64,000 nt of DNA from Verrucomicrobiales bacterium (GTDB taxonomy: Bacteria; Verrucomicrobiota; Verrucomicrobiia; Verrucomicrobiales; DEV007), in the NCBI GenBank assembly GCA_029233965.1, contig JARGOP010000010.1, forward strand, positions 17,176-81,175, in the 5' to 3' direction. The position numbers were made by a program, and so were the translations under genes. The notes below the pieces were generated by a model. The model made no database searches. It was given only the letters and a program-made list of their open reading frames with translations, and was not told where the DNA came from. This document shows, piece by piece, positions 49,614-62,703 of the stretch. Numbering within the stretch: position 1 is the stretch's first letter; each line of letters begins with the position of its first letter.

Positions 49614-50714
49614 CTAATCTTCCGTCGTGCCGCCGCCGGAGTTTCCGAGCTCAGCATATTCCGGAGGCAGGGCTGCTTTGAAACGGCTCTTATCGATCGC
49701 TTTCATGTAGGCCTCCAGAGCGGAAACCCGGCCTTCCAGCATCTTCGACCAGATCGAGTCGTCCATGAACTGCATGCCGTATTCTTTGCCGCCGGTGATG
49801 ATATCGAACAGTTTCTGAGTCGCACCTTCACGAATGACAGAACTCACCGCCGGCGTGGAAACGAGAATCTCGTTCACGGCGGTTCGTCCTCCGTCTTCGG
49901 TCTTGAGTAAGAGCTGCGCAACCACCCCCCGGAGTGAACCGGCAAGCATGGTTCGCACCTGTGCCTGCTGATCGGACGGGAACACGTCGACGAGACGGTC
50001 AACGGTCTTACGGGCATTGTTCGTGTGCAGTGTTCCAAAGACGAGCAGTCCTGTCTCTGCAGCTGTCAGCGCGAGTGAAATCGTTTCCAGGTCGCGCATC
50101 TCGCCCACGAGAACGATATCGGCATCCTCACGGAGGGAGGCGCGCAAGCCGTCGGCGAAGGAAGGGCAATGAACCGGAACTTCGCGCTGGCTGATCGTCG
50201 ATTTTTTGTTGTTGTGAACGAATTCGATCGGCTCCTCAATCGTGATGATGTGACGGGAGTAGGTCCGGTTGATGTAGTCGATCAACGCGGCGAGGGTCGT
50301 GGATTTTCCGGAACCGGTAGGGCCGGTGACGAGAACAAGCCCGCTTCGCATGTCGCCGAAGCGCTCGATGCTGTCCGGGACCTTCAAGTCCTGAAGCGTT
50401 TTGATCTTGGTTGGAATGAGACGAAAGACCGCGCCGAGTCCGTTCTTCTGCTTGAAGTAGTTGCAGCGGAAACGGGATTCCTGGTCCATCTCGTAAGCAA
50501 AGTCGAGGTCACCGGTTTCGAGAAAGCGTTCGAAAGCTTTCTCGTCGCAGATTTCCGCGAGCATGGCGCGGATCGTCTCGTGCTCAAGGATTCCCTCGGA
50601 GATCGGTTGGATGGTTCCGTGCGCCCGAAGCTTGGGTGGCTGGCCTTCACTCAGGTGAAGGTCGGAACCGCCGGTGGCGACAAGGTGCTGAAAGTATTGG
50701 TCAATGACAGCCAT
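49614..50714 (-). CDS. pilT: PilT/PilU-type twitching motility ATPase (second copy)
   Basis: Hexameric ATPase that powers retraction of type IV pili. The 366-residue protein has the N-terminal PAS-like domain (GSDLHLSEGQPPKLRAHGT), Walker A GPTGSGKSTT, the Asp box TIEEPIEFVH, Walker B ADIVLVGEMRDLET, the His box GTLHTNNARKTVDR, and the PilT C-terminal AVSSVIREG and FMDDSIWSKM stretches. It follows the other pilT-like gene by 28 bases. Pilus structural genes are not in the window. Which copy is PilT and which PilU cannot be settled by eye. Confidence 0.9.
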   Translation of the reverse strand: MAVIDQYFQHLVATGGSDLHLSEGQPPKLRAHGTIQPISEGILEHETIRAMLAEICDEKAFERFLETGDLDFAYEMDQESRFRCNYFKQKNGLGAVFRLIPTKIKTLQDLKVPDSIERFGDMRSGLVLVTGPTGSGKSTTLAALIDYINRTYSRHIITIEEPIEFVHNNKKSTISQREVPVHCPSFADGLRASLREDADIVLVGEMRDLETISLALTAAETGLLVFGTLHTNNARKTVDRLVDVFPSDQQAQVRTMLAGSLRGVVAQLLLKTEDGGRTAVNEILVSTPAVSSVIREGATQKLFDIITGGKEYGMQFMDDSIWSKMLEGRVSALEAYMKAIDKSRFKAALPPEYAELGNSGGGTTED

Positions 50715-50741
50715 AGTGTAAGAATCGTGGGTTGTTGAGGG

Positions 50742-51824
50742 TTACGCTCCGATCGCGGCTCTGAGGGTAGGGGGATCAATGGCGCGTCCTACCGCTTCCT
50801 CTTTCGAGATTTTGCCCTCGTTGTAGAGTTTGATGAGGGCGTCATCCATCATGATCATCCCGATTTTTTTACCGGTCTGCATGACACCCGGGAGCATGAA
50901 GGTCTTTCCCTCCCGAATCAGCGACGAAACCGCAGGGGTGTTCACGAGAAGTTCGAGAGCGAGTTCGCGCCCGCTCCCGTCAGCTTTGGGAACCAGTTGC
51001 TGAGAAATGATACCGCGAAGCGACTCACCGACCATGATCCGGATCTGCTCCCGCTGTTCGGTCGGAAACACGTCGAGAACCCGGTCGAGGGTACGGGCCG
51101 CACTGCCGGTGTGGAGCGTTGCAAGGACGAGGTGACCGGTTTCCGCTGCCGTGATCGCAAGCGAAATGGTCTCAAGGTCCCGCATCTCACCCACCATAAT
51201 TACGTCCGGATCTTCCCGGAGGGCGGCTCGCAGGGCGTGAGAGAAACTCTCCGTGTGCGTGTGCACTTCCCGCTGGTTCACGTGGCAGTCTTTCGACTCG
51301 ATGACATACTCAATCGGGTCTTCCAGCGTGATAATGTGGTCGGTGCGCTGACGATTGATTTCATCGACGAGGGCGGCCAGGGTCGTGGACTTTCCGGAAC
51401 CTACGGCTCCGGTGACGAGAACGAGTCCGTTGTGATACTCCAGGAGAGGTTTGATCGCATCCGGCAAACCGAGCTCGTCCATGGTACGAAGAGAGGTGTC
51501 GATCACGCGGAACACCATTTCCCATCCGAGGCGGGTTTTCACGACAGAGGCGCGGAAACGACCGAATCCCGGATCATAGGCGAAGTCGACATCCCCCTTT
51601 TCCTCGAGACGCCTCATTTCCTGCTCGGGCAGAAAGTTTCGGGCAAGTGTTTCGCTTTGCTCAGGGCTGATGATGTCTGCATTTTCCCAGATCGGCTGAA
51701 GAAGACCGAAGCGTCGCCACTTAGGCTGCGTGCTCGGAGCGAGGTGGACATCGGAGACATTGTATTCCTGCGCGAGACGAAGATATTCATCAACGTGACT
51801 GAGGATGGCGATGGTATCTGACAT
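50742..51824 (-). CDS. PilT/PilU-type twitching motility ATPase (first copy)
   Basis: A 360-residue paralogue of the next gene. It shows NVSDVHLAPSTQPKWRRFG, a Walker A with Ala-Val in place of Pro-Thr (GAVGSGKSTT), TLEDPIEYVI, PDVIMVGEMRDLET and ATLHTGSAARTLDRVLD, all needed for ATP hydrolysis. The C-terminus has AVSSLIREG and MMDDALIKLYNEG. Start placed at the ATG at 51824 (MSDTIAILSHVDEYL); the longer frame to 51935 has no family match. Tandem PilT paralogues commonly act together, one retracting and one modulating. Confidence 0.88.
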   Translation of the reverse strand: MSDTIAILSHVDEYLRLAQEYNVSDVHLAPSTQPKWRRFGLLQPIWENADIISPEQSETLARNFLPEQEMRRLEEKGDVDFAYDPGFGRFRASVVKTRLGWEMVFRVIDTSLRTMDELGLPDAIKPLLEYHNGLVLVTGAVGSGKSTTLAALVDEINRQRTDHIITLEDPIEYVIESKDCHVNQREVHTHTESFSHALRAALREDPDVIMVGEMRDLETISLAITAAETGHLVLATLHTGSAARTLDRVLDVFPTEQREQIRIMVGESLRGIISQQLVPKADGSGRELALELLVNTPAVSSLIREGKTFMLPGVMQTGKKIGMIMMDDALIKLYNEGKISKEEAVGRAIDPPTLRAAIGA

Positions 51825-51894
51825 AGTAAAATGTGATTCGGAAAGAGGGCTTTGCAAGCCTCGCCGGAGATCCGGGGAGTTTGAGGAGTATTTG

Positions 51895-51959
51895 GATTGG
51901 AAGAGTGACAGGCAAGTCAAAAAGTGGCTTTTCAACGGGATGCTTCAATTTCCAATCCA
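51895..51959. promoter_or_regulatory. Divergent regulatory region with a 9-bp inverted repeat
   Basis: GGATTGGAA (51895-51903) and TTCCAATCC (51951-51959) face each other across 47 bases in the 195-base gap between the pilT pair and the DUF1080-like gene. On the minus strand TTGACT, read from plus 51915-51920, could be a -35 for the pilT pair, but no good -10 is found at 16-18 bases. Suggestive only. Confidence 0.3.
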
Positions 51960-53065: not shown

Positions 53066-54109
53066 ATGAACCTGCGCGACCAGCTTAAAGAAATTCTTCC
53101 TGACATTCTGCCAAGAAACCCGGCCCAGGCGATCAAGGGCACCGAACTCATCGAGATGGTGAAGCATCGGCTTAAGCAGGATTATTCGGACGCCACACTG
53201 CGTTATCACTTTTCGATCATGTCCTGTGATCCATCCTCACCGATTGCCAAGGTTGAGCAGGGACAGGGATATTATTTGAGAACCTCGACGATTCACAGTG
53301 TCAACAGTGCAAGGAATCTGTTTCATCAGAACTACGGCGGGGTATCTGATGAAGGCTCGATGGGTTCAGTGGATGTTGACGTAGCGCTGGCCCGCGCTGA
53401 AAAGTTCCGTGCCGTGGTTCAGCGTTACCTCGAATCGGTGCAGCAGTTTCCTTTCACCTTTAACGAGTCGTTTTCGTCGGATGCCGATGCCAACCGCTGG
53501 CGTGTCCCTGACATGGCTGTGGTCGATTGGGTCGCCTCCAGGGAAGTGGACAACGAGGTGATTCTCGAGCAGCAGAAACTGGAGGTGCATCGTCGTCTCG
53601 GTCAGGCGCCTTTCCGCGTTTCCAGCGTGAAGCTTCGTCTCGAGTTGAGTCATGCTTCGCACCTTGAAGACCTTTATCAGTGTCTTGCCACTTCGGAATG
53701 GGCCAACTCCGGGGAACTTCTTATCGCGGCGCCGATTAACGATGCGCGCCTCCTCGAAGAGGTTCGTCGTTTCGCCTCCCGCTACGGAGTCGGGGTGATC
53801 AGCTTCGGTCTTGATGCTGACATCCTTGACGACATGCCGGAGCCGGCCGCGATTGAAAATCTTTCTCCTGATGAATTTGATTCGATTCAGGGACTCCTTC
53901 AGATCCGCCGCTACGCGACGCCACAGTCCCAGCCCAGCTTTGATTGGAATCATGTCGCGGCCTCCTCGGTAGAGAACACGGACTTTGCCCGCTTCGAAAA
54001 GTGGATCGCCCGTTGTGTCACGGAAGAGCGCACCATGACTTCCCGCGAGTTTGAAGATCTTGAGCGCAAGCCGGCGGTGGCTGCGGTTTCTCAGGAATAC
54101 GTGGCCTGA
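53066..54109 (+). CDS. HTH protein with a putative degenerate PD-(D/E)XK-like domain
   Basis: A 347-residue cytoplasmic protein. Residues 1-75 look like a winged HTH (AIKGTELIEMVKHRLKQDYS; TLRYHFSIMSCD; QGQGYYLR). The second half contains WRVPDMAVVDWVASREV and then SSVKLRLELSHASHLEDLYQ and TSEWANSGELLIAAP, which resemble HTH-nuclease proteins of the COG2958 type, where a PD and an E-x-K are catalytic. Here PD is present but the E-x-K reads S-V-K, so catalysis is doubtful. No neighbouring methylase or defence gene supports restriction. It ends before a strong terminator and is transcribed alone. Confidence 0.5.
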   Translation: MNLRDQLKEILPDILPRNPAQAIKGTELIEMVKHRLKQDYSDATLRYHFSIMSCDPSSPIAKVEQGQGYYLRTSTIHSVNSARNLFHQNYGGVSDEGSMGSVDVDVALARAEKFRAVVQRYLESVQQFPFTFNESFSSDADANRWRVPDMAVVDWVASREVDNEVILEQQKLEVHRRLGQAPFRVSSVKLRLELSHASHLEDLYQCLATSEWANSGELLIAAPINDARLLEEVRRFASRYGVGVISFGLDADILDDMPEPAAIENLSPDEFDSIQGLLQIRRYATPQSQPSFDWNHVAASSVENTDFARFEKWIARCVTEERTMTSREFEDLERKPAVAAVSQEYVA

Positions 54110-54146
54110 TTTTTTCCTCCCCTTGGTAGACAGGAATCTTATGAGA

Positions 54147-54180
54147 GGCGTCCCGTGGAAGCGGGGCGCCTTTTTTCTTT
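54147..54180 (+). terminator. Intrinsic terminator of the HTH-protein gene
   Basis: GGCGTCCCG (54147-54155), loop TGGAAG, CGGGGCGCC (54162-54170) with one G-U pair, followed by TTTTTTCTTT. Strong intrinsic terminator 38 bases after the stop codon. Confidence 0.9.
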
Positions 54181-54191
54181 CCGGTGAGCTT

Positions 54192-54231
54192 TTACAACTT
54201 CCTGACAACCCTTTTACAGGGCCATGACAAC
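54192..54231 (+). promoter_or_regulatory. Four direct 7-mer repeats at 11-base period (Pho-box-like operator)
   Basis: TTACAAC (54192-54198), TGACAAC (54203-54209), TTACAGG (54214-54220) and TGACAAC (54225-54231) are spaced exactly 11 bases apart, start to start, sharing T-(T/G)-A-C-A. This is the architecture of PhoB/PhoP boxes, where each 7-mer binds one winged-helix monomer. It ends 29 bases before the ATG of the vWA gene, which is followed by a histidine kinase and an OmpR/PhoB-type regulator. No clear -10 is seen between repeat and ATG. Confidence 0.6.
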
Positions 54232-54260
54232 TGATTCGGAAACCGCGCGATCTTCTCTGC

Positions 54261-55613
54261 ATGGACAAGATCCGAATCAAATCAATGTTGGCGCTCGGGG
54301 CAGTGATGCTCGCGGGCATGAATCCTTTCGTCTCAGGACACGGTGACATCCTGCCTTTGAAGGTGAAGACCGAGGTCGATCGACCACTCATTCATCAGAG
54401 CAAAGACGAGCAGAAAGTGGTCATTAAAATCGAAGTCACCGGCGAGCAAATGCCGGTTGGTGAGCGAATGCCGCTCAATCTTGCGATCGTATTGGACCGC
54501 AGCGGCTCAATGTCGGGAGGAAAGCTTGAGCAGGCGAAGCAGGCCGCGGAGATGCTGGTGGATCAATTGGAGAGCGATGACGTTCTTTCGCTCGTGGTTT
54601 ACGAGTCGGAGGTTGAGGTCGTTCTCTCCGCCGGGCGGATTGGAAAACGCCATGCTGAGATCAAGCGCCTCATCCGTCGCATTGAGACTGGAGGCAGCAC
54701 GGCCCTCTATGGAGGGGTGGAGAAAGGGGGGGAAGAGCTTAGTGAATTCCTTTCCAAAGAACGAATCAACCGTGTCATTCTCCTTTCCGACGGCATCGCC
54801 AACGTCGGGCCGGGTAGCAATCGCGAGATCGCGCAGTTGGGTTCCCGTCTCGCGAGGGAGGGCATGTCCGTGACCACGATCGGTCTCGGCGGCGACTACA
54901 ACGAAGCGCTGATGACGGCACTCGCTGAAGCGAGCGATGCCAACTACTACTACGTGGCCGATGTCGAGACCCTTCCTGAGGTGTTCCGGAACGAACTGGG
55001 CGAATTGAAGAGTCTTGTCGCCCGTGACTTCGTCATCGAGATTCGCTGCCCGAAGGGGGTGCGTCCGATTCGCTTCCTCGGTCGCCCTGACGAACTCAAG
55101 TCGCAGACGGGCAGCCTCACCTTTGGAACGCTCGCGAGCGGTCAGACGCGTGAACTCTTTCTTGAGTGCGAAGTCAGTCCGGAGGTTCAGGGTAGTCTTA
55201 CGGAAATTGCGGTCGTTTCTGCCGCGTTCGAAGACCTCAAGCAGGGGAAAAGGGCAAGGATTGATGACCGGACCGTGGTCGTCGGCTACACCGAGGATTC
55301 AGAGCTCGCCGGGAAGAGCGTGAACCAGGCGATTCGCGCCGAATCGGTGATCTACGCCAACGCAGTCGAAACCGAGAGAACTCTCTCCTACGCTGACTCC
55401 GGCGACATCGAAGCTTCCCGGGCGAATATCGTGAAGCAGAAGGCTGAATTGAACGCGGTGTATGCCGCCGCCCCGGAGGCTCAAAAGGCGACCCTGCGGG
55501 AGGAAATCAGCGCTCTCGAAGACACCGAGAAAGATCTCGAGTCGGACAGCCTCTCCAAAGAGCAGCGGAAAAAGCTCTCGATCGGTTCCTTTTTGAAACG
55601 CAACGCGAAGTAG
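54261..55613 (+). CDS. Exported vWA-domain protein
   Basis: A 450-residue protein with a signal peptide or anchor (residues 1-25). The vWA domain (about 70-245) has an intact MIDAS: LDRSGSMSGG (Asp79, Ser81, Ser83), Thr in GGSTALYGG and Asp in LLSDGIANVGPG, so it should bind a metal and a protein ligand. A beta-sandwich follows, as in inter-alpha-trypsin-inhibitor-like and YfbK-like proteins, and a charged helical C-terminus. It stands behind the 11-base-period repeat and ahead of a kinase-regulator pair; a terminator separates it from the kinase gene. A link to envelope or nutrient stress is inferred. Confidence 0.85.
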   Translation: MDKIRIKSMLALGAVMLAGMNPFVSGHGDILPLKVKTEVDRPLIHQSKDEQKVVIKIEVTGEQMPVGERMPLNLAIVLDRSGSMSGGKLEQAKQAAEMLVDQLESDDVLSLVVYESEVEVVLSAGRIGKRHAEIKRLIRRIETGGSTALYGGVEKGGEELSEFLSKERINRVILLSDGIANVGPGSNREIAQLGSRLAREGMSVTTIGLGGDYNEALMTALAEASDANYYYVADVETLPEVFRNELGELKSLVARDFVIEIRCPKGVRPIRFLGRPDELKSQTGSLTFGTLASGQTRELFLECEVSPEVQGSLTEIAVVSAAFEDLKQGKRARIDDRTVVVGYTEDSELAGKSVNQAIRAESVIYANAVETERTLSYADSGDIEASRANIVKQKAELNAVYAAAPEAQKATLREEISALEDTEKDLESDSLSKEQRKKLSIGSFLKRNAK

Positions 55614-55663: not shown

Positions 55664-55705
55664 CCGTGAAGCGATCTTTGTCGAAGCGTGGTAGGCTTCC
55701 CCACC

Positions 55706-57691
55706 ATGAAACGAATTGCCCTGGTCTTCTTCCTCGCGATTCTGCTGCCCTCGATTCTGCTGGCAGTGATGGCGATTCGTTCAGTTCGCGATCAGTCCCT
55801 GATCCTCAACAGTCAGCGGGCGATGTTCTATCAGTCGACCTGTGATTCCGTGGCCGCTGAGATCAACTTGTTCATGGATGAAGTTCGTGTCTTTCACGGG
55901 CAGCTCATCGACGAACTCGCCCGACGTCAGAAATCGGGGTTGGTCGAAACTTTCGACGAGGCGATTACGGATGCATGGTCTCAGGCTGCGGTTGGTGCGG
56001 TCGTGAGCAGTGAGGGCATCATCATTTCTCCTCTCGTTGGTGAGTCAGCCGCCGCGGATTCCTTTCTTGCAAACCATCGGGATTTCCTCATGAATGAGCG
56101 CACCGTCGAGGTCTACCAGGCTCCTCCAGTGCTCAACAGTGAAGTATCGATCGTCGAGGATAATTCCGCTTCGAGAGGTGCGGCCGGTTCTTTTTCCAAA
56201 GTTGCCCCCTCACGATCTCTTGAGGATGCGGAAGCCTCCGTCGCCGGGGAACCGCAGCGATCCAAACTCAAAGTCGGAATCGTCCAGAATAAGTTGGAGG
56301 GCTTCCGCTTCGAGGAGCCTTCGAAAGAATCAGGGCCGGAACTCTCAGATGTCGCGGAATTGCGGGTTCCGGCCGCTGCTCCGAAAGTAATGCAGCAGCG
56401 GAACGTGATGCCGACTCAGTCATCCGTGCCGTTGAGCGAATCTCTCTCTCCCCTGCTTGAGGAAGCACGTGAGACTCAGGCCACCACAAACGTTTCGCGA
56501 CTGAGCGCTGCCGAAGTGAAATCAACTGATTTGATTGCCGCGGAGTCAGGGGCCGTGAGTCGGCTCATCGATGGAGAGCTTCATATTCTGCTGTGGGAAA
56601 AGAGTCCGCGTCTTCCGGGCTACACCTTCTGGACGGAGCTGGATCTGCAAACGATCCGCGAAGATCTTGAACTCCTTCTTACGGAACTCCCGTTTGCCTC
56701 ACAGGAAGCGGTTTCCGTCGCCCTTCTGGATTCGGACGGTGAAATGGTCACTCAGACAGAGCCCGGATTCACGACAGACTGGAGCCTCCCGTTTGTGGCT
56801 TCCGAAGTGGGGCAGATTCTGCCGCGCTGGGAGGTCGCGACCTATTTTCTGAATCCTGATTCCCTCAACGAATCGGCGAGGACCCTTCGCTGGACCCTTT
56901 CCCTGATCGTGGTTTCGCTGCTTGTTGCGGTCGCGGTGGGGAGCTTTCTGATCCTCAAAGCGGTGCGCTACGAAATGCAGTTGGCGACGCGTAAGACGGA
57001 TTTCGTGAGCAACGTGAGTCATGAATTAAAGACTCCACTGACCTCCATCCGGATGTTTTCCGAGTTGCTTGCGAGGGGAGGGGAAGCGGATCTCGAAAAG
57101 ACGAGAAACTACGCCGGAATCGTGCACAAAGAGTCGGAGAGATTGAGTCGCCTGATCAATCGGCTTCTGGATTTTTCGCGCCTGGATCGCGACGAGATGA
57201 CTCTCAAGGCTGGTCCGGTCGATCTAAGCCGACTGGTGAAGGACAGTGTTGCGACCTTTGAAATGCAGCTCGAAGCCGATGCGATGAATATTCAGATCGA
57301 AGAGAGAGTGGATCAGCCTTTGGTCGTCATCGGGGATCAGGATGCTCTCGAACAGGTGATCTTGAACCTCCTCAGCAATGCCGGGAAATACGCCGCAGAT
57401 GGAGGAGAGATTCGAGTCGTCGTTGCCGCCCCGGGCGAAGAGAAAGCGGTGCTCCGCGTTGAGGATCGCGGGAAAGGGGTCCCCCGGAGCCTGCGCGAGA
57501 AGGTCTTCGAAAAGTTTTACCGGATCGACGATTCCATCCATGCCGGGGTGGATGGTTCGGGTATCGGTCTGGCGCTGAGCCGTCAACTGGTTGAAAAGCA
57601 CGGCGGTGAAATCCGGTGTGAACCGCGCGACGGCGGCGGAAGTTCTTTCGTCATTGAACTGCCCCTGAGGAACCCCCATGAAGAAGAGTGA
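55706..57691 (+). CDS. Sensor histidine kinase with large extracytoplasmic domain
   Basis: A 661-residue membrane kinase. The first helix (RIALVFFLAILLPSILLAV) and a second near residues 393-413 enclose an extracytoplasmic sensor of about 370 residues with a long Ser/Glu-rich, apparently disordered middle and no recognised fold. The HisKA domain has His439 in NVSHELKTPL; the ATPase domain shows NLLSNAGKYA (N box), DRGKGVP (G1), FEKFYRID (F box) and GSGIGLALSRQLVEKHGG (G2). Start placed at ATG 55706; a GTG at 55688 adds six residues. The response regulator gene overlaps its end by 14 bases, so the two are a cognate pair. Confidence 0.93.
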   Translation: MKRIALVFFLAILLPSILLAVMAIRSVRDQSLILNSQRAMFYQSTCDSVAAEINLFMDEVRVFHGQLIDELARRQKSGLVETFDEAITDAWSQAAVGAVVSSEGIIISPLVGESAAADSFLANHRDFLMNERTVEVYQAPPVLNSEVSIVEDNSASRGAAGSFSKVAPSRSLEDAEASVAGEPQRSKLKVGIVQNKLEGFRFEEPSKESGPELSDVAELRVPAAAPKVMQQRNVMPTQSSVPLSESLSPLLEEARETQATTNVSRLSAAEVKSTDLIAAESGAVSRLIDGELHILLWEKSPRLPGYTFWTELDLQTIREDLELLLTELPFASQEAVSVALLDSDGEMVTQTEPGFTTDWSLPFVASEVGQILPRWEVATYFLNPDSLNESARTLRWTLSLIVVSLLVAVAVGSFLILKAVRYEMQLATRKTDFVSNVSHELKTPLTSIRMFSELLARGGEADLEKTRNYAGIVHKESERLSRLINRLLDFSRLDRDEMTLKAGPVDLSRLVKDSVATFEMQLEADAMNIQIEERVDQPLVVIGDQDALEQVILNLLSNAGKYAADGGEIRVVVAAPGEEKAVLRVEDRGKGVPRSLREKVFEKFYRIDDSIHAGVDGSGIGLALSRQLVEKHGGEIRCEPRDGGGSSFVIELPLRNPHEEE

Positions 57692-58385
57692 TATCACCAT
57701 TTTTATCGTCGAAGATGACACCAGCATCCGCTTTGGGCTGGAAGAGATCCTGAAAGTTGAGGGCTTCTCAGTGGTCTCATGCGGGAATGGCGGGGTTGCG
57801 ATTGAGGGGATTGGAGAAGCGCTGCCGGATCTCATCATTCTCGACGTCATGTTGCCGGGTAAGAGTGGCTACGAGATTGCTGCGGAACTCCGCAAAACAG
57901 GCTGCCGGATTCCCATTCTCATGTTGACCGCGAAGGGGCAGGAGATGGACAAGGTGGCCGGCTTGAACAGCGGGGCGGATGACTACGTGACGAAGCCCTT
58001 CGGGATCAGTGAATTGCTCGCGCGGGTCAATGCACTGCTCCGACGCTCCTGCGACTGGGGAAACAGTGAGGCGGCCGCCGGTGAGGCGGGGGTCATTCCG
58101 CTCGGTCGCGCGGAGATCGATCTCGAAAACTACGCTGTGAATCTCGAAGGGGAAACTGCGGCTCTCACCCCGCGGGAGCGCGAACTGATTATTTTCCTGC
58201 TGCAGCATCGGGGGCAGGTCCTGAGTCGCGACCGGATCCTCGAGGCGGTCTGGGGAGTGAAGTATTTCGGCACCACGAGGACGCTGGATCAATGCGTTGC
58301 CCAGGTCCGGAAAAAGATCGGGGACCACGGGCGCACCGCTGAGTATCTCCTCACCGTCCACGGGGTCGGCTACAAGCTGGTCTAG
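57678..58385 (+). CDS. OmpR/PhoB-family response regulator
   Basis: A 235-residue transcription regulator. The receiver domain has the acidic pair EDD near residue 12, phosphoacceptor Asp56 in ILDVMLPG, Thr in MLTAKG and Lys in VTKPFG. The C-terminal winged helix has LTPRERELIIFLLQHRGQVL, RDRILEAVWG and the wing VHGVGYKLV. Family members bind head-to-tail direct repeats with about 11-base spacing, exactly what stands before the vWA gene 3.4 kb upstream, so that site is its likely target, or that of a true PhoB elsewhere. Confidence 0.93.
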   Translation: MKKSDITIFIVEDDTSIRFGLEEILKVEGFSVVSCGNGGVAIEGIGEALPDLIILDVMLPGKSGYEIAAELRKTGCRIPILMLTAKGQEMDKVAGLNSGADDYVTKPFGISELLARVNALLRRSCDWGNSEAAAGEAGVIPLGRAEIDLENYAVNLEGETAALTPRERELIIFLLQHRGQVLSRDRILEAVWGVKYFGTTRTLDQCVAQVRKKIGDHGRTAEYLLTVHGVGYKLV

Positions 58386-61660: not shown

Positions 61661-61675
61661 CGAATATTTTATTCG
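61661..61675. promoter_or_regulatory. CGAATA/TATTCG palindrome upstream of rpmG
   Basis: CGAATA-TTT-TATTCG (61661-61675), a 15-base palindrome overlapping the stop of the TraR/DksA-like gene and lying about 67 bases upstream of rpmG. It may be a regulator site or a weak terminator stem. No second copy noticed. Confidence 0.3.
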
Positions 61676-62571
61676 TCCTCGGATGAGGCCTTGGAGACTT
61701 CTTTCTCGTCGAGCCCGAAGAGGGAGGTCACCGGTGAGCGATGAATGCCTTGAGCCTGCTCTTCATCGAGCTTCTCCTGGTAGTCGACGGTGCAGCGCGC
61801 AAAAGGCATCGCTTCGAGGCGGGCGGGGGGAATCGGCTCGCCGGAACCTTCACAAACACCGTAGGTGCCGGCATCGAGGCGAATGAGGGCTTCTTCGATT
61901 TCGTTCACCGCATCCTGCTCCTGAGAGAGGATATTCAGAGCGAAATCGCGATCGTAGGAATCTGAGCCGGCGTCTGCCTGGTGCATCCCGAAGGCGGAGG
62001 AATCCGAGTTGTCCTCGCCGCGGCCCAGCGTATCCCGGGCGACACCGTTCATCTGATCGACAAGCATATCGCGGAGATCGAGAAGTTTCTGGCGCTGATT
62101 TTTGAGGAAAGTCGCCGAAAGTTTTTGAGGTTTGCCGCCCTTTGTCGGTGCGGGAGAGGGAAGGTTGCGCTGAGCGAGATGAGGCATCATGGGGCGCTTC
62201 TTCGCAGTGATTCGCTTTCTCAGAGGGGTCTGGTTAGCCGGGGCGTTTGCGTCATACTTCTTTTTGGAAGCCGCCTTCTTCGCCGGAGCCTTCTTCACCG
62301 GCGCTTCCTTTTCAGCAGGGGCTTTTTTGGCGGGAGCTTTTTTGGCGGGCGCTTTTTTGGCGGGAGCTTTTTTGGCGGGAGCCTTTTTCACGGCTGTTTT
62401 TTTGGCGGGCGCTTTTTTGGCCGGGGCGGCTTTCTTAGCGGGCGCTTTTTTAGCGGGTGCTGCTTTCTTTTTCACTGCTTTTTTGGCGGGAGCCGCCTTT
62501 TTGCTGGATGCTTTTTTGGAAGGGGCTGTTGCCCTCTTCGTAACCTTTTTTGTCGCCGCTTTCTTTGCCAT
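61669..62571 (-). CDS. TraR/DksA-family protein with histone H1-like Lys/Ala/Pro repeat N-terminus
   Basis: A 300-residue fusion. Residues 1-110 are Lys/Ala/Pro repeats of the APAKKAPAKKA type, like histone H1 tails and HC-like chlamydial proteins, which should bind DNA or RNA. Residues 110-170 are a basic linker. The C-terminal half has a coiled coil with acidic residues and a zinc-finger-like end: YGVCEGSGEPIPPARLEAMP and then ARCTVDYQ. Only Cys240 of the four zinc-ligand positions is kept (Ser243, Thr261, Tyr264 replace the others; Cys260 is one place off), so zinc binding is unlikely. Start at ATG 62571 (MAKKAATKK); the frame upstream is not protein-like. Role in transcription or nucleoid control is inferred. 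Confidence 0.82.
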   Translation of the reverse strand: MAKKAATKKVTKRATAPSKKASSKKAAPAKKAVKKKAAPAKKAPAKKAAPAKKAPAKKTAVKKAPAKKAPAKKAPAKKAPAKKAPAEKEAPVKKAPAKKAASKKKYDANAPANQTPLRKRITAKKRPMMPHLAQRNLPSPAPTKGGKPQKLSATFLKNQRQKLLDLRDMLVDQMNGVARDTLGRGEDNSDSSAFGMHQADAGSDSYDRDFALNILSQEQDAVNEIEEALIRLDAGTYGVCEGSGEPIPPARLEAMPFARCTVDYQEKLDEEQAQGIHRSPVTSLFGLDEKEVSKASSEDE

Positions 62572-62703
62572 GACCGTTGGCTTCTGGGGTGGGGAAATGC
62601 TTAATGTAACGAGGCGGGAACACACTCGTCCCTCTGAAAGGCGGAATTTGTAAAGCATTCGAACCGCTCCCGCAAGAGGAATCCAACGTTTCCACCATAA
62701 AGG

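Follow-up and report, generated by a model that had tools for sequence, protein, structure and literature searches.

A four-unit tandem array as a candidate operator of a vWA-kinase-regulator operon in Verrucomicrobiota

An array of four direct repeats ahead of a vWA gene in a Verrucomicrobiales genome is very probably the operator of a self-regulated vWA-kinase-regulator operon that would be turned up by its own regulator. Comparison of the window (the whole 64,000-nucleotide stretch analysed here) with related genomes indicates that the array is most likely an operator of the OmpR/PhoB tandem-repeat type, with the regulator encoded two genes downstream as the candidate ligand.

The array and its conservation before vWA operons

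A sequence-only reading had described four TxACA repeats at an exact 11-base period before the vWA gene, and our analysis confirmed both positions and period: the units TTACA, TGACA, TTACA and TGACA start at 54192, 54203, 54214 and 54225, and the letters at 54192-54229 are TTACAACTTCCTGACAACCCTTTTACAGGGCCATGACA. The array follows the end of an intrinsic terminator by 13 bases and precedes, by 31 bases, the ATG of the vWA gene, the first of a three-gene operon encoding a vWA protein, a histidine kinase and an OmpR/PhoB-type regulator. The features are listed below; per-unit counts come from 80 aligned arrays selected for a score of at least 17, which inflates them.

54143-54178, + strand: intrinsic terminator of the upstream gene 53066-54109; 14-pair stem with 8 GC pairs and a T tail
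54192-54196, + strand: putative operator unit 1, TTACA; TKACA in 76 of 80 aligned arrays
54203-54207, + strand: putative operator unit 2, TGACA; TKACA in 79 of 80
54214-54218, + strand: putative operator unit 3, TTACA; TKAC in 61 of 80, the least conserved unit in relatives
54225-54229, + strand: putative operator unit 4, TGACA; G at the second base in 78 of 80
54249-54254, + strand: inferred -10 element GATCTT, 19 bases after unit 4
54261-55613, + strand: exported vWA protein, 450 aa, with MIDAS residues and a predicted leaderless start; Pfam VWA, E = 1.4e-19
55688-57691, + strand: membrane histidine kinase, 667 aa; HisKA and HATPase_c
57678-58385, + strand: OmpR/PhoB-family response regulator, 235 aa; Response_reg and Trans_reg_C; recognition helix RTLDQCVAQVRKK; proposed array ligand

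The terminator would insulate the array promoter. An Rfam match to ctRNA_p42d near the array (17.6 bits, with 50 needed) corresponds to this hairpin and was discarded. The gene at 53066-54109 has no Pfam or NCBIfam match but is 69-96% conserved, and usually syntenic, in the genus. The kinase and regulator genes overlap and a gap of only ~75 bases separates the vWA and kinase genes, so the three genes likely form one operon. The DxSxS, T and D residues of the vWA metal site (D79, S81, S83, T146 and D177 in the numbering of the first aligned sequence) are invariant across ten aligned vWA proteins, that of the window included. The best NCBIfam match is TIGR03788, a marine proteobacterial sortase target that is likewise a vWA-domain protein; at 48 bits against a curated cut-off of 551.65, the window protein falls far outside that family. 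In the kinase, which carries a SHELKTP motif, two hydrophobic stretches flank a large extracytoplasmic region, and the regulator carries a DVMLPG aspartate region. Elsewhere in the window, 61669-62658 encodes a long lysine/alanine-rich, histone-like N-terminal half with an apparent DksA-type zinc-finger end, and 49614-51935 (minus strand) holds two adjoining PilT-like ATPase genes.

Searching the window for TKACA-N6 repeated four times, with up to three mismatches, yielded no independent second match, the second one listed being the array shifted by one unit; the expectation in the shuffled window is 0.01. The genome-wide scan proposed in the sequence-only reading returned this single four-unit site in 4.83 Mb at up to two mismatches. 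As the pattern was defined after the sequence had been seen, conservation is the proper test. We therefore gathered vWA orthologues from order- and family-level relatives by protein similarity and read their upstream regions. Array scores were mostly 18-20, and the array was present in all order- and family-level vWA-kinase-regulator operons with an intact upstream region, down to ~35% vWA identity, with the same four units, the same exact 11-base period and a nearly equal distance to the start codon; the orthologues at L015, L017 and L022 are among the carriers. The remaining non-carriers either have upstream regions cut by a contig end or are vWA genes for which no linked kinase and regulator were detected, such as the homologues L227 and L228 and, on a short contig, L226. 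With the exception of one distant Chloroflexi match, the three genes occur together wherever the contig extends far enough.

Scanning 388 genomes for the exact pattern gave 17 arrays in 16 genomes, most of them before vWA genes of the window's vWA family; because these loci had been chosen by the array itself, the survey was repeated with a protein profile. Among 40 profile-selected loci across the phylum, all outside the earlier set, the array score was at least 17 in 34, and in 26 of the 30 for which a linked kinase and regulator were detected. The other four linked operons scored below 17; L310 keeps two units and L303 shows nothing recognisable. Absence of the array upstream of orthologues, which had been named beforehand as a refutation, was thus looked for, and the array was found to be present.

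In the aligned arrays, units 1, 2 and 4 are nearly fixed and unit 3 is the most variable. At their third base, units 1, 2 and 4 have A instead of T in 77, 79 and 79 of the 80 arrays, respectively. A unit 0 or unit 5 occurs in none of the 80, and the unit count is exactly four. The repeats are direct rather than inverted and recur at about one helical turn (10-11 bases), as in OmpR/PhoB-type tandem operators.

Promoter geometry and the direction of control

In 42 of 46 operons, a motif of the form xAxxxT starts at an offset of 57 or 58 bases from the array start, compared with 0-6 operons at any other single offset; within the window's family, 23 of 24 members have it at one of these two offsets. 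This -10-like element lies 19-20 bases past the last unit. In the wider set the signal drops to 54 of 80, and the -10 assignment weakens outside the window's family. A consensus sigma-70 promoter at 16-18 base spacing was looked for at the array promoter and was not found. In the window's family the -10-like element ends 6-7 bases before the ATG, and when the last base of GATCTT is taken as -7, +1 falls on 54261, the A of the ATG. There the ATG lies 68-70 bases past the array start (L027 is a later exception, and in L010 an out-of-register ATG comes first). Given the near-constant distance from -10 element to ATG, only about 6 bases, and a +1 on the ATG itself, the vWA transcript of this family is predicted to be leaderless; outside the family, the ATG is often further downstream.

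These features suggest a mechanism in which the extracytoplasmic kinase, perhaps together with the vWA protein, would sense an envelope or surface cue and phosphorylate the regulator. The phosphorylated regulator would then occupy one face of the DNA as two dimers arranged head to tail, with a monomer on each 11-base unit, and would recruit RNA polymerase. The promoter in question offers a -10-like element but lacks a -35 element at the usual 16-18 base spacing. Because polymerase would be recruited to a -35-less promoter by the regulator, the operon would be turned up by its own product, with transcription in the window's family starting at the A of the ATG; in relatives, the operator may have spread to additional kinase-regulator operons and to genes for large secreted proteins. 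Control is probably activating, a direction that we infer from geometry alone.

The same operator, read by the same regulator, could instead mediate negative autoregulation by covering the -35 region, an explanation that differs only in the direction of control. Unit 4, which is never TTACA and is TGAC-like in 78 of the 80 selected arrays, spans -36 to -32 relative to the inferred start, roughly the place of a -35 element, and four sites over this region could equally repress. However, a promoter that has no -35 element at normal spacing unless activated leaves little to repress, and OmpR/PhoB arrays in head-to-tail order immediately preceding a -10 element usually activate, as established for PhoB. 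Repression is therefore unlikely, though worth keeping in view. Unit 4 may also double as a displaced -35-like element.

The protein that reads the array

Four OmpR-type regulators are encoded in the genome, and the helix RTLDQCVAQVRKK occurs only in that of the array operon. All array-linked regulators with a readable helix share a DQ pair (LDQ[CH]), in place of which the genome's PhoB, CreB-like and QseB-like regulators have DT, DA and DV. Among the further relatives' regulators that were read, those of the operon-regulator kind also have DQ and four unrelated ones have DR. For three of the DQ regulators (L232, L233 and L236) the contig may stop short of the operon start, and a fourth (L234) accompanies a degenerate array with a score of 17.

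In the comparison of 75 family genomes, the array was found in 33 of the 36 that have a close orthologue of the regulator and in 6 of the 39 that do not (Fisher p = 9e-12, an optimistic value because the genomes are related). Two of these six (G030 and G035) encode regulators of the operon-regulator kind that are more distant, two (G009 and G024) are incomplete genomes, one (G049) carries the array before a VIT-vWA gene and one (G053) has a simple repeat. No close vWA orthologue was found in G025, and the array there stands directly before the histidine kinase-response regulator pair (L130). An OmpR/PhoB-family regulator is thus both linked to the array, two genes downstream, and co-occurs with it in the family. 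The earlier proposal of an operator for the downstream regulator is supported by this comparison, through conservation, linkage and the recognition helix, and makes this regulator the best candidate ligand.

The link between array and regulator is a sequence correlation only, and would also arise if some other DNA-binding protein bound the array and merely controlled the vWA-kinase-regulator module. We consider this improbable in view of the helix signature common to the array-linked regulators, the joint absence of array and regulator, and the array's position directly before a kinase-regulator pair where a close vWA orthologue was not found.

The sequence-only reading had also offered a PhoB encoded elsewhere as the binder and a phosphate or envelope-stress regulon as the setting. 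Pho boxes are built of direct repeats at an 11-base period, with seven better-conserved and four spacer bases per unit (PMC4415409), and their core is similar to that of the array (E. coli phoA, TGTCATAAAGTTGTCACG; PMC10294691, PMC4415409). As with the sites of PhoB in E. coli and of PhoP in B. subtilis and Streptomyces, the array repeats lie upstream of a -10 element, and the Pho box is read by a winged helix of the OmpR/PhoB family, to which the proposed array reader also belongs. The array differs in its unit, which is TKACA rather than TGTCA and, with A rather than T as third base, does not match the CTGTCAT-type consensus; in its number, fixed at exactly four; and in its linkage to the vWA-kinase-regulator operon rather than to phosphate genes. 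Its last unit starts 24-25 bases before the -10 element, unlike the 16 bases in E. coli phoA, whose -10 element we take to be TATAGT. The two pst operons and the phoB-phoR locus of the genome were searched for an array, as were the pst loci of five other genomes, and none was found; the PhoB helix, DTHIKRLREK, differs from the DQCVAQVRKK of the operon regulator; and across genomes the array tracks with the orthologue of the operon regulator. That the array is a pho box read by PhoB is thus very improbable, and neither PhoB as the binder nor placement of the vWA gene in a phosphate regulon was supported by the comparison; phosphate control of the operon is not supported. An envelope-stress role is plausible because the genes encode exported or membrane proteins.

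ArcA, an OmpR/PhoB-family regulator, likewise binds sites of three to five direct repeats at 11-base spacing in E. coli (PMC3798270). The array resembles these multi-repeat sites in its direct repeats and spacing, but their number and position vary, whereas those of the array, like its spacing, are nearly frozen across the phylum. Within the PVC superphylum, a vWA-domain gene is also a regulator target in Waddlia (Chlamydiae), where it is under HrcA (PMC4989314); that regulator is a different one, and the accessible part of that source describes neither an array nor a two-component operon.

Although a run of identical 11-base repeats in G053 illustrates that repeats of such a period can arise, chance or a simple tandem-repeat artefact has a negligible probability and is already refuted by conservation, since spacers vary while units are fixed across the phylum and, in 20,000 Markov-simulated 300-bp upstream regions, a best array score of 17 was reached five times and 18 never.

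Further targets and significance

A second site, of three units (TGACA-N6-TTACA-N6-TGACA), lies in the same genome at C137:18384-18410 (L198:4885-4911, minus strand), ahead of a 91-aa reading frame and an MscS-like gene, with a CAGAGT-6 bases-ATG geometry as in the window. It is a possible further array; the 91-aa frame has a single match in the genus, at 32%, and is otherwise not conserved there. We attributed to chance a three-unit match with one mismatch on C4, which lies at a sulfatase-like reading frame.

Relatives also carry arrays ahead of distinct operons of a secreted gene, kinase and regulator (L122, L124 and L154), and ahead of genes for VIT-vWA (L136), alpha-2-macroglobulin-like (L158) and DUF4139 (L145) proteins and for very large secreted proteins of two kinds. 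The first kind, at L119, L128, L129, L132 and L133, has an open frame of ~2,330 aa that matches no Pfam family above the cut-off, and these loci have a vWA-like gene upstream. The second comprises long secreted proteins (L125, L131, L134, L140, L143, L152 and L155) with, where read, a DLEAIFEKEGRGVFLPYREF-like motif; the one tested had no Pfam match. For one giant-protein target examined by orthology, the array is present in six closer orthologues and absent in four divergent ones, two of which have upstream regions cut short, and this target holds for one clade only. As these other targets were mostly found through the array, they are leads rather than a defined regulon. The G053 run (G053:C347:4553-4623, L144) consists of at least seven identical 11-base repeats, TGACATTTATC, and is either an expansion of the array unit or an unrelated simple repeat.

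To our knowledge, Verrucomicrobiota have few known operator-regulator pairs, and none of the papers found by searching an open-access library describes a TKACA four-unit operator. That four units and their spacing have been retained across the phylum suggests that more than simple binding is under constraint, probably the need for two obligatorily cooperative dimers at a fixed distance from polymerase. More tentatively, and with somewhat less than even confidence, we propose a Verrucomicrobiota-wide sensing module of vWA protein, kinase and regulator whose four-site operator is frozen in number, spacing and position across many families, which in one family would be a leaderless sensor operon and in some lineages the hub of a surface regulon comprising further kinase-regulator operons and VIT-vWA, alpha-2-macroglobulin-like, DUF4139 and giant secreted proteins. 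The array as a ready search motif and the recognition-helix signature together allow targets to be assigned in genomes of uncultured bacteria, and they make it possible to test what this widespread but unstudied vWA two-component module does.
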